Assembly (NCBI RefSeq): GCF_014203645.1
Contig: NZ_JACHJL010000014.1
Coordinates: 1 to 64,000, forward strand
DNA: 64,000 bases
Direction: 5' to 3'
Source: Streptomyces zagrosensis
Lineage (GTDB): Bacteria > Actinomycetota > Actinomycetes > Streptomycetales > Streptomycetaceae
The translations under genes were made by a program, and so were the position numbers. This document shows, one piece after another, positions 29,413 through 38,250 of this stretch (its first letter is position 1; each line of letters starts with the position of its first letter). The notes under the pieces were generated by a model. It had not been told where the DNA came from and did no database searches. It saw only the letters and a program-made list of their open reading frames with translations.

Positions 29413-29610
29413 CTATGCGTTGAGGTGGTCGAGCTTGCCCGTCTTCACCGTGTCTATGAAGGCTCGCAGGGTGGCGGGGGCGGTGGTGAGTACAGTCTCG
29501 GGCGTTTCGCTCTCGCGGAGGTGGAGGGTGCCGCCGGGGGTGGCGGCTAGGTTGAGGCAACTGTTTCCTTCGCCGCAGTAAGAGGACATCCGCCAGTTCA
29601 GGATGGTCAA
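29413..29610 (-). CDS. DUF397 protein, second copy
   Basis: A 65-residue paralogue of the neighbour (WRMSSYCGEGNSCLNLAAT, LHLRESETPETVL, LRAFIDTVKTGKLDHL). The two share the core SSYCGEG and LHLRESETPE and probably arose by duplication. TTG 29610 is the start, with AGGA just ahead. It is followed by the other DUF397 and preceded by the XRE regulator on the same strand. Confidence 0.88.
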   Translation of the reverse strand: MTILNWRMSSYCGEGNSCLNLAATPGGTLHLRESETPETVLTTAPATLRAFIDTVKTGKLDHLNA

Positions 29611-29622
29611 CGGTCCTGCCTT

Positions 29623-30474
29623 TCAGAGATCGCGGGCGATGTTGCGAATGAAGTCGCGGGACGCCCCTGGATTAAGGGCGGCGGACTCCATCCTGTCGAG
29701 AAGCGTGCGGTACTTAGTCAATTGTGCTTCCGCATCCAAAAGCACGGACCCATGGCTTTGGTCGAGTTGCACCGTATCGAGTTGGGGCACAGCTCCCGTG
29801 GCGTAGCAGACGGACTGTCCCGAGCCGGGAAACGCGCCGCTGGCGAACGGGATGACCGCGATGGTGACGTGGTCACGCTCGCTCATGTGCAGAAGGTGCT
29901 GCAACTGCGCGCGTGCGGTGCCTGGACCGCCGAACTGCATCCTGATGGCCGCCTCGTGCAACACGGTGGTGAAGGCAAGCGGAGTGTCGCGGTACATCAC
30001 TGCTTGCCGCTTGATTCGGTGAGACAGTCGGTGCTCTACCTCCGGCGGCGAGAGCGTTGGCACTACCTGTTGAAAGACAGTCCGCGCATGGTCGATCGTC
30101 TGAAGCAGGCCCGGGATGTGCACAGTGTGACCGATGCGTAGCCCGGTCGCATGATGCTCAAGCTCCGCCAAATCCAACAGGCCAGGCGGCAAGACGCCCC
30201 GGTACTCCTCCCACCAGCCGCGCTTGCGCTCGCCGGTCATGCCCGCGAGTGCGTCGATCAGGGCTTGGTCGTCGCACTCGTAATTGCAGGCGAGGGTACG
30301 GACCATCGTCGCGCTGACTGGAGCGCGGCCCGTCTCGATGTTGCTGATACGTGCCTGGTTGCCGCCCAGCAGCGCACCCGCCTCACGCGCGGTCATGCCC
30401 GCCTTCTCGCGCAGCTTGCGCAACTCCGCACCGAGTCGCTGCTGACGTGCAGTTGGTGTCGTTCGCGACGTCAT
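29623..30474 (-). CDS. XRE-family regulator with DUF5753 domain (WhiJ/AbaA-like)
   Basis: A 283-residue regulator. A helix-turn-helix of the Cro/C1 type occupies residues 10-65 (LRKLREKAGMTAREAGALLGGNQARISNIETGRAPVS), and the DUF5753 ligand-like domain the rest (HIPGLLQT, HRIKRQAVMYRDTPLAFTTVLHEAAIR). Members control development and antibiotic production and work with DUF397 partners and a divergent ATPase, exactly the set seen here. A strong ribosome site (GGAGAGGAGG) precedes ATG 30474. The gene is 12 bases ahead of the first DUF397 gene. Confidence 0.92.
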   Translation of the reverse strand: MTSRTTPTARQQRLGAELRKLREKAGMTAREAGALLGGNQARISNIETGRAPVSATMVRTLACNYECDDQALIDALAGMTGERKRGWWEEYRGVLPPGLLDLAELEHHATGLRIGHTVHIPGLLQTIDHARTVFQQVVPTLSPPEVEHRLSHRIKRQAVMYRDTPLAFTTVLHEAAIRMQFGGPGTARAQLQHLLHMSERDHVTIAVIPFASGAFPGSGQSVCYATGAVPQLDTVQLDQSHGSVLLDAEAQLTKYRTLLDRMESAALNPGASRDFIRNIARDL

Positions 30475-34083: not shown

Positions 34084-34551
34084 GTGACGTTCAATCAGGA
34101 GTGGGAACAACTCAAGAAGGACGCGTCGGACCGACTGCAATTGGCGAGTGCCGGTGTGACAAAGGGCGACAACGGCCGGGGCGAGCTACGGAGTTCCAGG
34201 ACCGCGTGGAATCAGGCGTCCCAAGGCGTGGGCTCGGTGATCGGCATCATGCGGTCCGCTGTGGGTGGGTTGACTGAGGGACAACGCGGAGCGGGCGGCG
34301 GTGACGCGGCTATGGAGGGCTTACTCAGTGCCGTGACGCAAGGCAGCGTATATCGGTCATGGCAGCGCAAGATCGAGCTCTTGCATCGCGAGTGTGATGA
34401 GCTCAAGGGCAAACTCGAGAAATCCGGCAACGCCTTTTACTACACCGACAGCGCGATCAAAGACGCGTTCACGGAACAGCAGACCAGACCGGACGAGAAG
34501 CCGGACACCGGCCGACCCGCGCCGGGCGAAGGGGGTCAGTCCCGATGGTGA
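34084..34551 (+). CDS. Small helical protein, partner of the DUF1023 hydrolase
   Basis: A 155-residue protein starting at GTG 34084 (GGGGGA upstream). The sequence is almost all helical heptads (FNQEWEQLKKDASDRLQLASAG, then YRSWQRKIELLHRECDELKGKLEKSGNAFYYTDSAIKDAFTEQ). This is reminiscent of WXG100/ESAT-6-type helical hairpins, including a W near the middle, but is longer and not a proven member. Its stop overlaps the start of the hydrolase gene. No similarity beyond Streptomyces hypothetical proteins can be claimed from reading. Confidence 0.75.
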   Translation: MTFNQEWEQLKKDASDRLQLASAGVTKGDNGRGELRSSRTAWNQASQGVGSVIGIMRSAVGGLTEGQRGAGGGDAAMEGLLSAVTQGSVYRSWQRKIELLHRECDELKGKLEKSGNAFYYTDSAIKDAFTEQQTRPDEKPDTGRPAPGEGGQSRW

Positions 34552-36308
34552 CCTTCGCCCAACTGACCCAGTTGCGTCCGGCAGAGTTCGGAGAAGCCGC
34601 AGACGGGTGGCACAAACTCAGCAGTGCAGCGAGCGCGGCCAAGGACCGCGTATCGGATGACATCGCCACGCAGCTACAGAAGCTTCTGATAGGCGAGGGG
34701 GTTGACGCCGCCGTTGTACGGCTGCGACGGCTCGCGCAGAACTTCCATTACGTTCAGGTGGAGAGCGGCCTGGTGCGCGCCGCGCTCAACGGTTTGGGCG
34801 AGGAACTCGGCGCGGCGCAGAAGAAGCTGCTCGATGTCGTGGCGGAGGCCGAGGCGGAGAAGTTCACCATCAAGCCGGACGGTTCCGTGCACTGGGTCGA
34901 AGCGGACCCAACGATTCCGACCACCCCACAGAAGAGCGTGCAGGGCGAGCGGCCCGTCGTGGTCATTGGGTCGGACGCGGACCCGAAAAGGGCGAAGGCG
35001 CAGGAGTATGCCGACCGTGTTGGGGCTGCACTCAAGGAAGCCACGGAGGTGGACACCCGTTACGCGCAGGCCCTGGGGCGACTCCACGCGGATAACGACC
35101 TGAACGTTTCCGACGCGGACTGGGTGGACGCGCAACGGGACATGGGAACAGTACGTACCGCAACTGGAAGCCTTGCGGAGGGGAGCATACCCAAAGACAA
35201 GTCTCCCAAGGAGAACGCCGAGTGGTGGAAAGGGCTTTCGGGGGACGATAAGGCAGACTACGCCGCGCTCTACCCGGCAAGTGTCGGCGCCCTGGACGGC
35301 ATCCCGTCCGACGTCCGCGACACGGCTAACCGTGTGGTCCTCGCAGAGAAGCGGGCCGACTACCAAACTCAGCTCAACGCCATCCCCGCAGAGCCGTGGA
35401 AATATCAGCCGGGCAGTAAGGGGAATCCCATGGCGACCAAGACAACTGAATGGGTCAAGTGGGATAGAGAGTGGGCTGGAAAGAAAGCCCAGCTTGAGGC
35501 GTCGCTCAAGGGGATGGGCGATATCCGGAAGCGCTTCGAGCGTGATATCGAACCCGGAGATGACCGTTTCCCGCGAGCGTACCTTCTGGGGTTCTCCCCC
35601 GAGGGTAGGGGGCGCGCCGTCATCGCCAACGGCAACCCGGACACCGCCGACCACACAGCGGTGTACGTGCCGGGAACCAATGCTGGATTTGGCAATCTCG
35701 CCCACGATATCAAGCGAGCAACCACTCTGTGGACCGTTTCCGATGCCGTTTCCGATGGCGGCAGCGTGTCAACCATCACGTGGCTCGGCTACGACGCGCC
35801 GCAGGGTGCGAAGGCAGCCGTCTCCAGCGATTATGCCAATAATGGCGCACCGAGTTTGAACAGATTCGTCGATGGCCTGAATGCTTCACACGAGGCAGGT
35901 TCACCCGGTCACCTCACCGTGACGGGCCACAGTTATGGCACCACGTTGATCGGCTCCGCAGCTCGCCAAGGAGATCTCAATGCGGACGACATCGTCACCT
36001 TAGGCAGCCCTGGCGTTCAAGTGGGACGGGCGACGGACTTGGACGTCCCTCGCGGGCATGTGTGGAATGAAGAAGCCTCGGGGGACCCTATACCGGAGGC
36101 TGGCCGTATGAAACATGGCCGCACGGAATACCATTTCGATACCGGCGTGGATTACGTCACGCCAAGCAACGAACGCTTCGGAGCAAACCCGATGCGTACC
36201 GACACGAGCGGACACGGTAGCTACTGGGACAGGGATTCTGAGACTCTCCTTAATCAGGCGCGCGTTGTCGTGGGGGATTATGACAACGTGAGTAGGAGGG
36301 GTCGGTAA
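34545..36308 (+). CDS. DUF1023-type alpha/beta hydrolase with helical N-terminal half
   Basis: A 587-residue protein. The first 290 residues are helical and resemble ESX-type substrate or WXG-like modules. The C-terminal half is the alpha/beta hydrolase of the DUF1023 type seen in actinobacteria (AVYVPGTNAGFGNLAHDIKRATTLW, the nucleophile elbow TVTGHSYGTTLIGSAA, then VTLGSPGV and a late GHGSYWD His). No classical signal peptide is visible. Start ATG 34545 overlaps the upstream gene. The gene is followed after 1 base by a lipoprotein gene with an excellent ribosome site, so operon organisation is probable. Substrate unknown. Confidence 0.8.
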   Translation: MVTFAQLTQLRPAEFGEAADGWHKLSSAASAAKDRVSDDIATQLQKLLIGEGVDAAVVRLRRLAQNFHYVQVESGLVRAALNGLGEELGAAQKKLLDVVAEAEAEKFTIKPDGSVHWVEADPTIPTTPQKSVQGERPVVVIGSDADPKRAKAQEYADRVGAALKEATEVDTRYAQALGRLHADNDLNVSDADWVDAQRDMGTVRTATGSLAEGSIPKDKSPKENAEWWKGLSGDDKADYAALYPASVGALDGIPSDVRDTANRVVLAEKRADYQTQLNAIPAEPWKYQPGSKGNPMATKTTEWVKWDREWAGKKAQLEASLKGMGDIRKRFERDIEPGDDRFPRAYLLGFSPEGRGRAVIANGNPDTADHTAVYVPGTNAGFGNLAHDIKRATTLWTVSDAVSDGGSVSTITWLGYDAPQGAKAAVSSDYANNGAPSLNRFVDGLNASHEAGSPGHLTVTGHSYGTTLIGSAARQGDLNADDIVTLGSPGVQVGRATDLDVPRGHVWNEEASGDPIPEAGRMKHGRTEYHFDTGVDYVTPSNERFGANPMRTDTSGHGSYWDRDSETLLNQARVVVGDYDNVSRRGR

Positions 36309-36309
36309 A

Positions 36310-36867
36310 ATGGCCAGCGTGGGGGTAGCTTTTATGGGTCGGCCAAAAATCGCTTTCACTGCCTTATTTATGGCCCTAGCGATCGGAATGACGGGGTGTT
36401 CGAGCATGGCCGACAATGAGTCAACGGTCGAGGATATCGGCGAGGTCAAAGCGCAGTCTCGTGGGCTATCCGATGGATTGCTGCGAATTATTGACCTGGA
36501 GGGTGACCTGAAGGAACCAGTGACCTCAGTCGGAACGTGCGGCGACAAGGACGCGGATAAGTTCTATCGCATCAACAGTTCTTGGTCGCTGGCGGGCCCA
36601 CCGGCACAGGACTTGCGGGGGGCGATGGGTCGGCTCAGCAAGGTGATGCCGAAGAGTGGCTGGGATATCACCGAGCACGGCCGGGAGAACAGCGTAGCCA
36701 AGTCACATTACTTGAAAGCCAATAGCACGGAAAGGGCATTTTCTGTATACATAGTCGTCCTTGAAGCCTCGCCTAACTCCGGACGGACCAGGCCCTTGCT
36801 CTATGTGGGCCTTGCATCGGACTGCTTCCAGGTCCCGGATGGCCAGTCGGCGAGGGACAAATACTGA
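36310..36867 (+). CDS. Lipoprotein, first of two paralogues
   Basis: A 185-residue lipoprotein. The signal peptide IAFTALFMALAIGMTGCSS has a lipobox MTGC, with a modified Cys at about residue 30. The mature part is Ser/Asp-rich and then has a conserved core of LSDGLLRIIDLEGD, CGDKDADKFYRINSSWSLAGPPAQDLRGAM, PKSGWDITEHGRENSVAKSHYLKAN, then FSVYIVVLEASPNS and DCFQVPDG. The same core recurs in the next gene. AGGAGGGG precedes ATG 36310, directly after the hydrolase stop. Confidence 0.85.
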   Translation: MASVGVAFMGRPKIAFTALFMALAIGMTGCSSMADNESTVEDIGEVKAQSRGLSDGLLRIIDLEGDLKEPVTSVGTCGDKDADKFYRINSSWSLAGPPAQDLRGAMGRLSKVMPKSGWDITEHGRENSVAKSHYLKANSTERAFSVYIVVLEASPNSGRTRPLLYVGLASDCFQVPDGQSARDKY

Positions 36868-36911
36868 CGTCTGCCCGGGCCGGTACGGATTGGTGCGACA
36901 GCGGTAAGGGG

Positions 36912-37487
36912 ATGGCGGGCGATGTGTGGATTAGCGGAGTTGGTGCAAAAACCTTGATCGCCGCATTTATCGTGGCGCTGATAACCGGGCTGGCAGGGTG
37001 CTCAATGATGTCCGACGCAAACGGTGGCCGTCACGGCAATGCTGGGGTCAAGCCAATCGCCCATGCCAAGGCAGATGCCGAAGCGCTGAGCGCCGGACTG
37101 GAAGAAATTATCGATCTGGACGGCGAAATGACGAACGTAGGGCCCGGTGTCCGGCCGTGTGAGGGCGACGATGCGGACAAGTTCTACCTGATCCGCAGCG
37201 GATGGTCGCTGTGGGGTCCGCCGGCGGAAAAGATGCGAGTAGCGATGGATCGACTCATCGATGAGATGCCGAAGAAGGGCTGGACCATCACCGAGCATGG
37301 CCGGGAGAAAAGCGTGGCCAGGGACCGCTATCTGAGGGCCACCAATGAGAAGGCCAAGTTTTCCGTGCACATCGGCCTTTTGGAACCATCGCCGAACTCC
37401 CGCCTGAAAAAGCCGCTGTTCAAGGCGACCCTCGTGTCCGGTTGCTTTGAGGTTCCGGAAGGGGCGTCGGCGGAGAACGCGTACTGA
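36912..37487 (+). CDS. Lipoprotein, second paralogue
   Basis: A 191-residue lipoprotein. Lipobox LAGC lies near residue 30. Its core repeats the upstream gene: LSAGLEEIIDLDGEM, CEGDDADKFYLIRSGWSLWGPPAEKMRVAM, PKKGWTITEHGREKSVARDRYLRATN, SVHIGLLEPSPNS. It is separated from the first copy by 44 bases with AAGGGG before ATG 36912. The duplication implies neofunctionalised subunits, or one anchored sensor and one partner of the hydrolase; both are inference. Confidence 0.85.
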   Translation: MAGDVWISGVGAKTLIAAFIVALITGLAGCSMMSDANGGRHGNAGVKPIAHAKADAEALSAGLEEIIDLDGEMTNVGPGVRPCEGDDADKFYLIRSGWSLWGPPAEKMRVAMDRLIDEMPKKGWTITEHGREKSVARDRYLRATNEKAKFSVHIGLLEPSPNSRLKKPLFKATLVSGCFEVPEGASAENAY

Positions 37488-37683: not shown

Positions 37684-38250
37684 ATGACCCTGACCACCCC
37701 CGGGCGCACCATGACGCCGTTGCGTCGGGCCGCAGAGGCCGCCGAAGAGGCGAGCGGGTTGCGCGCCGACATCATCCGAGGAGTCCTCATGATCTCCCCG
37801 ACCTCGCGCGGCAAGCACGCCGGGATCATCAACGCCCTCTACGACCAACTTCGCCCCGCTTTGCAGGAGCGTTTGCGGCCCTTTCAGATCGCCTCCGTAA
37901 CCATGCCGGATGACGAGGATGACTACGCGACCCCTGATCTGCTGGTCTGCGATGCCGGGTTTGGGGAGTCGGACGACTGGCTGGCCGATCCCGCCGATGT
38001 GGAGTTGGTGGTGGAGGTCGTTTCCAAGGGCAACAGCACCAAGGACAGCCGGGACATGGTCGCCTGGTACGCCGACGTTGGCATTTCGACGTACCTGCTC
38101 GTTGATCCGCGCGACGGTACCTGGACGCTGCGTACCGTGCCCCGCGATGGTGCGTACCAGGGCAGCCCGCGCGGCCGGTATGGCGAAAGCGTCGAGCTGA
38201 CGGCGTTGGGCGTGAAGATCGCGACGGACGGCTTCGTCCGTTACGGCTGA
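37684..38250 (+). CDS. Uma2-family (DUF820) endonuclease-like protein
   Basis: A 188-residue protein starting at ATG 37684 with GAAGGGAG ahead. It has the Uma2 PD-(D/E)XK features: an ADIIRGVLMISPTSRGKHAGIINAL N-terminal segment, the ATPDLLVCD acidic position, VELVVEVVSKGNSTKDSRDM with the E-x-V/K pair, and YLLVDPRDG. Uma2 proteins are multicopy in actinobacteria and cyanobacteria with unproven biological roles. The open frame to 37447 overlaps the upstream lipoprotein and is ignored. Confidence 0.85.
   Translation: MTLTTPGRTMTPLRRAAEAAEEASGLRADIIRGVLMISPTSRGKHAGIINALYDQLRPALQERLRPFQIASVTMPDDEDDYATPDLLVCDAGFGESDDWLADPADVELVVEVVSKGNSTKDSRDMVAWYADVGISTYLLVDPRDGTWTLRTVPRDGAYQGSPRGRYGESVELTALGVKIATDGFVRYG

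Follow-up and report, generated by a model that had tools for sequence, protein, structure and literature searches.

A cassette of four genes in Streptomyces zagrosensis is likely to encode a lipase or esterase effector exported by a type VIIa secretion system (T7SSa), together with a dedicated small partner and lipoproteins that confer immunity. It occupies positions 34084-37487 of the window, which comprises the 64,000 nt from position 1 to 64,000 of contig NZ_JACHJL010000014.1. An earlier note, made from the sequence alone, had described a set of four genes here (a helical small protein, a DUF1023 hydrolase and two paralogous lipoproteins), and all four reading frames were confirmed at these positions. 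The set is not a chance arrangement, since it recurs in other Streptomyces. According to the proposed mechanism, the small protein would pair with the N-terminal helical hairpin of the hydrolase, which carries an LxG motif; EccC would recognise the two together, and export would follow. The C-terminal Ser-Asp-His hydrolase would cleave an ester, judging from its fold most likely in a membrane lipid of neighbouring cells. The lipoproteins, as their lipobox suggests, would be exported by Sec and anchored outside the producer's membrane. There they might bind and block the catalytic domain in self and kin, a role suggested by covariation, by arrays of lipoprotein genes and by analogy to TilA from S. 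aureus. Lipoprotein 2 may make immunity to variant enzymes broader or stronger.

The small protein of the window has no Pfam match above the cut-off. A profile of 31 small proteins searched against 177,635 sequences from the Protein Data Bank (PDB) yielded five matches at E<=1, all of them ESAT-6 (EsxA) or EsxB, the best with E=0.014. Aligned by hhalign with 12 Streptomyces WXG100 proteins, the profile gave E=1.7e-6 and a probability of 90, and the alignment was collinear over 99 columns. In addition, Pfam WXG100 was matched by 9 of the 31 small proteins at E<=0.1 (best 0.00068). Judged by these profiles, the small protein is a remote relative of the WXG100 (ESAT-6/CFP-10) superfamily, and from this relationship we infer that it is all-helical. 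Its Cys104 (window 34393-34395) is nearly invariant (30/31). At hydrolase position 74 (window 34764-34766), 49 of 52 aligned hydrolases have Cys and the window hydrolase has Ser. A bond between both residues is unsupported: among 28 cassettes their presence does not covary, three hydrolases without Cys74 being accompanied by a small protein that retains its Cys, and one small protein without Cys by a hydrolase that retains it.

The hydrolase is composed of a helical N-terminal and a catalytic C-terminal half. Its AlphaFold2 model, computed with a 52-sequence alignment, has a predicted local distance difference test (pLDDT) score of 90.5 and contains helices at residues 12-47, 51-104, 147-179 and 190-207. 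The long helical N-terminal half postulated in the earlier note is therefore borne out as a long hairpin followed by more helices. Helices 12-47 and 51-104 form the hairpin, with residues 48-50 in the turn; L48 is found together with G50 in 45 of the 52 aligned hydrolases and [LV]xG in 47. The N-terminus, inspected by eye, shows no signal peptide, as had been stated. The hairpin is the probable export and partner-binding domain. Pfam searches at E<=0.1 with 24 hydrolase N-termini returned WXG100 (3/24), PPE (2/24, best 0.0081) and T7SS_signal (1/24), all weak and scattered amid many unrelated matches; LXG was matched neither by these nor by any of the 52 hydrolases at this threshold. The catalytic half contains Abhydrolase_8 (PF06259, residues 352-519, E=9.4e-33), which we take to be the former DUF1023. 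Ser463, Asp514 and His557 are each identical in 52/52 aligned hydrolases. In VIA-align, this half matches PGAP1 best (Z 13.7), next to B. subtilis lipase A (Z 13.5); many other esterases are tied. From the model, the hydrolase probably cleaves an ester, probably that of a lipid, and would be a lipase or esterase. A substrate cannot be named from the fold, since many alpha/beta hydrolases lie within about 1 Z unit; the helical half was barely probed by this comparison. Open frames of 4292, 4990 and 20955 residues in genomes of other genera (G074, G050 and G235, respectively) match the hydrolase profile in its middle or its catalytic part. They may be giant proteins containing a hydrolase module or merely long open stretches.

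Related loci were the best 80 of 386 relatives found, and counts on them describe close relatives. Behind the hydrolase, a lipoprotein of the same family is encoded in 80/80 loci. The small gene precedes the hydrolase in 75 of the 80, being short in L082. Among the exceptions, it is split in L066, cut by the contig end in L094 and, in L095, found past the lipoprotein on the opposite strand; in L087 and L093 no small gene was found in any of the six frames. A second sample was a survey of 200 genomes evenly drawn from the bacterial family. The hydrolase profile has matches in 199 of them, mostly weaker and partial, and the lipoprotein family is present in 32 (E<=1e-5). Among the matches listed, 31 hydrolases are full-length (profile position <=3 to >=586), and according to the list, 28 of these have an adjacent family lipoprotein. 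The other three comprise a weak family match in G528 (3.79 Mb), a lipoprotein outside the family hidden Markov model (HMM) in G400 and none in G498. According to the earlier note, a hydrolase found widely without lipoproteins would argue against a system. The full architecture stays paired (28/31) and withstands this objection, which would apply to the catalytic domain alone, as that is widespread (199/200 vs 32/200 genomes for the lipoprotein). Some survey lipoproteins lie apart from the 31 hydrolases, e.g. G546 C3:185724, G550 3157504 and G511 1497063.

A diverged set of 16 loci with 18 hydrolases was hand-picked from the survey. A lipoprotein is located behind 17 of the 18 hydrolases (two recognised by eye, three by HMM only); the hydrolase of L157 (G498) had none in the test applied. 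Of these lipoproteins, 4/17 match the family HMM and 13/17 do not. In a sample of the phylum, 43 of 396 genomes match, mostly partially. Two loci contain a second pair of hydrolase and lipoprotein genes downstream of the first (second hydrolases at L158 6918-9299 and L159 8052-10538). In both second hydrolases, the match to the profile does not begin until about position 204, which indicates a different N-terminus.

Covariation within the cassette was used to ascertain which part of the hydrolase goes with which partner. The set comprised 75 cassettes: the window (lipoprotein 1 only), its own paralogue L014 and 73 loci. L066, L087, L093, L094 and L095 were left out, as were the short or odd calls L082 and L046; from L053 and L069, the second lipoprotein was left aside. 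Lipoprotein identity correlates with that of the catalytic domain (r 0.82). In partial Mantel analyses, which control for the remaining parts, the lipoprotein still follows the catalytic domain (0.66, p 0.001); neither the hairpin (0.03, p 0.32) nor the middle (0.02, p 0.36) shows such a link. For the small protein the pattern is the opposite: it follows the hairpin (0.68, p 0.001) and, to a lesser extent, the middle (0.27, p 0.001), not the catalytic domain (-0.01, p 0.55). Thinning to 43 cassettes left this picture unchanged. Followed along the hydrolase, the signal of the small protein stays level at 0.72-0.78 to about residue 216, amounts to 0.60 at 202-256 and to 0.07-0.18 beyond. The lipoprotein signal is about zero to residue 176, reaches 0.33-0.38 at 162-256 and 0.48-0.63 from 322 on. 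It is low in between, at 242-336, a stretch that tracks neither partner well. This profile resembles a gradual change less than a switch close to the domain boundary, and it fits two putative modules, one for export and one for killing and immunity.

Type VII genes are present within the fetched flanks of 11/80 loci. In front of the cassette, eccC was found in L023, L024, L029, L044 and L056 (in the latter with one short called frame between), and eccB with a mycosin-like protease gene in L019, L021, L040 and L049. L095 carries eccC beyond the lipoprotein, and L018 WXG100 genes and a mycosin-like protease gene behind the cassette. L083, which has only a subtilase, was left out of this count. 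A Pfam check of the linked proteins bore out EccB, FtsK/SpoIIIE, WXG100 and S8 peptidase. Furthermore, eccC is located directly in front in the survey genomes G580 and G460. As a rough yardstick, about 0.7% of random 12-kb stretches would touch eccC in the 8.75-Mb genome of the window strain, which has four strong eccC matches, three of them over the curated cut-off; 0.6 of 80 loci would be expected and 6 were observed, but given the relatedness of the loci the comparison is not a test. In a quick hydrolase tree (89 rows, some long branches), the label of type VII linkage (13 rows) needs 10 changes, 9 of which are forced by well-supported branches; these can be gains or losses. The type VII-like export route proposed earlier is thus supported at the sequence level by 11 of 80 loci with eccC, eccB, a mycosin-like protease or esxAB and by the apparent WXG100 relationship of the small protein. 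Behind eccC-linked cassettes, protein-kinase-like genes were noticed (L145 1700-5020, L146 17390-18343). One of them (L145 4088-5020) matches Pfam Pkinase at E=2e-6, below the cut-off; the others were named by eye.

The two lipoproteins of the window are indeed paralogues, with 48% identity (89/184 aligned residues), and the Gly-Cys of the lipobox is invariant in 38 aligned family members. Neither of them has a Pfam match above the cut-off. Attempts to derive a function from Pfam yielded 16 assorted families at E<=0.5, each in one or two of the 38 members and none convincing; DUF576 was not among them. Sequence matches in the PDB at E<=1 were chance-like. The model of lipoprotein 2 has a mean pLDDT of 84.4, with ten-residue blocks at 78-98 from residue 41 on, i.e. 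the mature part is well predicted, and displays a beta-alpha-beta-beta-alpha-beta4 topology. VIA-align found DcrB (Z 9.6), a DUF4853 protein (Z 9.4), mycobacterial LppA (Z 9.0) and Eag chaperones (about 7).

Several loci bear possible signs of conflict. Among the survey matches listed, at least two family lipoproteins are located near 12 of the 28 lipoprotein-paired full-length hydrolases. In G558, an intact cassette is followed by a transposase-like gene (named by eye), then by the orphan C-terminus of a hydrolase, a lipoprotein behind that, and three more lipoproteins. In L033, a hydrolase C-terminal tip and a broken lipoprotein follow the intact cassette. Ordinary duplication could have left these tips and the lipoprotein arrays behind; on the other hand, type VII toxins in Bacillota are described as having strings of immunity genes that are not identical (PMC9484751). 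The effector-immunity relationship suggested in the earlier note gains support from the pairing in 80/80 loci, the lipoprotein arrays, the orphan tip and a lipoprotein that covaries with the catalytic domain and not with the hairpin.

A number of observations weigh against an exported effector with its immunity proteins. The YxxxD/E export motif is present in just 9 of the 31 small proteins and absent from that of the window; by eye it was seen in four diverged loci (L163, L164, L171, L172). Of the kinships to WXG100 or LXG considered in the earlier note, that to WXG100 was found for the small protein. Profile searches did not recognise the hairpin: its profile reached hhalign probabilities of 1.5 with WXG100 and 0.3 with the small protein, and its 11 PDB matches at E<=10 include no type VII entry. 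No type VII gene lies beside the window cassette; the genome has them elsewhere. The co-occurrence envisaged in the same note holds for the hydrolase with the lipoprotein (80/80) and the small gene (75/80), but is uninformative for EccC at the genome level, as EccC is found in 198 of the 200 family genomes at E<=1e-100 and in 189 above the curated cut-off. Between small protein and lipoprotein, a residual correlation of 0.16 (p 0.019) persists. The covariation itself may come from exchanged DNA tracts, with no contact between the proteins, because each covarying pair is an adjacent pair. Finally, Foldseek found nothing for the lipoprotein fold at E<=0.001, the best match being the chaperone SciW of a type VI secretion system (0.0034), and the matches to DcrB, DUF4853 and LppA point to no function.

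Some of these points have been taken up in two other explanations. The cassette might be an ordinary hydrolase operon that has nothing to do with type VII export and resembles its substrates only superficially. That the hairpin as such is poorly supported by sequence and that the window has no type VII genes is in line with this, whereas the repeated placement in type VII loci, scattered over the hydrolase tree, and the partner's WXG100 relationship make it very unlikely. A type VII-exported housekeeping hydrolase acting on lipids or the cell envelope deserves more attention, albeit it is rather unlikely, too. Here, the lipoproteins would be regulators, anchors or substrate carriers, and the cassette would serve the envelope or the development of the producer itself and not be directed at competitors. 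Streptomyces EsxAB has been linked to development, the genome carries a second, divergent copy of the cassette, and the lipoprotein model resembles DcrB and LppA, which are not known as immunity proteins. However, conflict is a better explanation for the patchy distribution of the lipoprotein family (32/200 genomes, E<=1e-5), the variable number of lipoproteins, the orphan tip with its lipoprotein and the non-family lipoproteins behind related hydrolases. An anti-phage defence role was rejected: none of the four proteins has a PADLOC match at E<=0.01.

A broader view can be formulated, for and against which we see equal weight: Streptomyces ESX systems would, at least partly, be interbacterial weapons that export modular lipase effectors. 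Two modules would be exchanged near a fixed boundary, one for export, made up of the WXG-like partner and the helical half, and one for killing, made up of the catalytic domain and the surface lipoprotein immunity. This would be the T7SSa counterpart of the polymorphic toxins of type VIIb systems (T7SSb), with many lipoprotein immunity families.

The features of the cassette are compiled in Table 1. As claimed before, the first two genes overlap, namely by 7 bases, 1 base separates the hydrolase stop from lipoprotein 1, and 44 bases more separate the latter from lipoprotein 2. The lower GC content was likewise confirmed: 64%, 62% and 58% in the 1-kb blocks of 34-37 kb compared to 66-69% in the adjoining blocks.

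Table 1. Features of the cassette in the window (aa, amino acids; ORF, open reading frame)
Feature	Position	Strand	Basis
Small helical partner, WXG100-like, 155 aa, GTG start	34084..34551	+	ORF
Hydrolase, 587 aa: helical half and alpha/beta hydrolase	34545..36308	+	ORF; Pfam; AlphaFold2 model
N-terminal helical hairpin, hydrolase residues 12-104	34578..34856	+	Model helices; putative role
LxG motif, hydrolase residues 48-50, hairpin turn	34686..34694	+	Alignment of 52 hydrolases
Abhydrolase_8 match, hydrolase residues 352-519 (catalytic domain)	35598..36101	+	Pfam
Putative catalytic Ser463 in GHSYG	35931..35933	+	Invariant; role predicted from fold
Asp514, probable partner of Ser463	36084-36086	+	Invariant; role predicted from fold
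His557, probable partner of Ser463	36213-36215	+	Invariant; role predicted from fold
Lipoprotein 1, 185 aa, lipobox Cys30, probable immunity protein	36310..36867	+	ORF; lipobox; hydrolase-lipoprotein pairing across loci
Lipoprotein 2, 191 aa, paralogue of lipoprotein 1	36912..37487	+	ORF; 48% identity; model

The second, divergent copy in the same genome is located on contig C9 and consists of a small protein, a hydrolase and one lipoprotein. Its hydrolase is 48% identical to that of the window over residues 146-583, and the copy is flanked by ABC-transporter genes, by eye of the oligopeptide-transporter type. Contig C1 encodes two more Abhydrolase_8 proteins, with no match to the small protein or the lipoprotein nearby. 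Among the best 80 of the 386 relatives, the closest hydrolase is that of S. buecherae (72% identity). There, the cassette (L017) occupies the corresponding site, flanked by a GNAT gene and by a gene that, by eye, is argS-like; it comprises one lipoprotein, and lipoprotein 2 was not seen there. A Uma2-family protein is encoded at 37684-38250 (+) of the window (Pfam E=3.3e-22), and its relative in S. buecherae (L017 3660-4337) on the opposite side of the cassette, i.e. the site has been rearranged. At 29413-30474 (-), a small protein and a regulator resemble, by eye, the XRE-DUF397 pair common in Streptomyces.

In the open-licence literature surveyed by titles and the beginnings of abstracts, the cassette is not described, which is a weak negative. 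In the extracts considered, a Micrococcus paper on DUF1023 contributes a table row only, and a paper on T7SS variants mentions neither Streptomyces nor a hydrolase. The cassette shares with the mycobacterial PE/PPE proteins, including the PE-lipase LipY, the proposed T7SSa affiliation, a helical N-terminal domain ahead of a lipase-type enzyme (LipY) and a helical heterodimer partner. It differs from them in that the N-termini yielded only the few weak PPE matches mentioned above. To our knowledge, LipY has no lipoprotein immunity partner.

With LXG toxins, their Lap partners (PMC10730906) and tandem immunity genes such as EsaD/EsaG and TelC/TipC (PMC9484751), the cassette has in common a helical N-terminal domain, probably for export, and small helical partner genes in front. 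In contrast to them, its hydrolases lack a Pfam LXG match, belong to another enzyme class and would depend on T7SSa instead of T7SSb. As in those systems, the immunity gene would be located behind the toxin gene and occur in strings of non-identical paralogues.

The closest parallel is TslA/TlaA1-TlaA2/TilA from S. aureus (PMC10730906): a Ser-Asp-His lipase, small helical partner(s) and a cassette-encoded membrane lipoprotein with a variable number of paralogues. Like the loci described here, the TslA cassette is part of a type VII locus in some strains, while other strains have it elsewhere. By contrast, TslA starts with the lipase and ends with the helical domain, whereas the order found here, with the helical domain in front, is the usual one for type VII substrates. 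S. aureus belongs to the Bacillota with T7SSb, Streptomyces to the Actinomycetota with T7SSa. Instead of two small partners, one small gene per cassette appears in our tables and maps; a second one may be located elsewhere. Unlike TilA, the lipoproteins have no DUF576 match. By analogy, the cassette is best filed as one that would work like TslA/TlaA/TilA without being a member of that family, from which it is set apart by the order of its domains, by how many partner genes it has and by the family of its lipoproteins, and hence as a new effector-immunity variant in the T7SSa of Streptomyces. If this is true, the type VII systems of Streptomyces gain a specific large substrate whose enzyme activity can be tested, and the S. 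aureus strategy of a lipase combined with lipoprotein immunity exists in the T7SSa of Actinomycetota, with the order of domains reversed.

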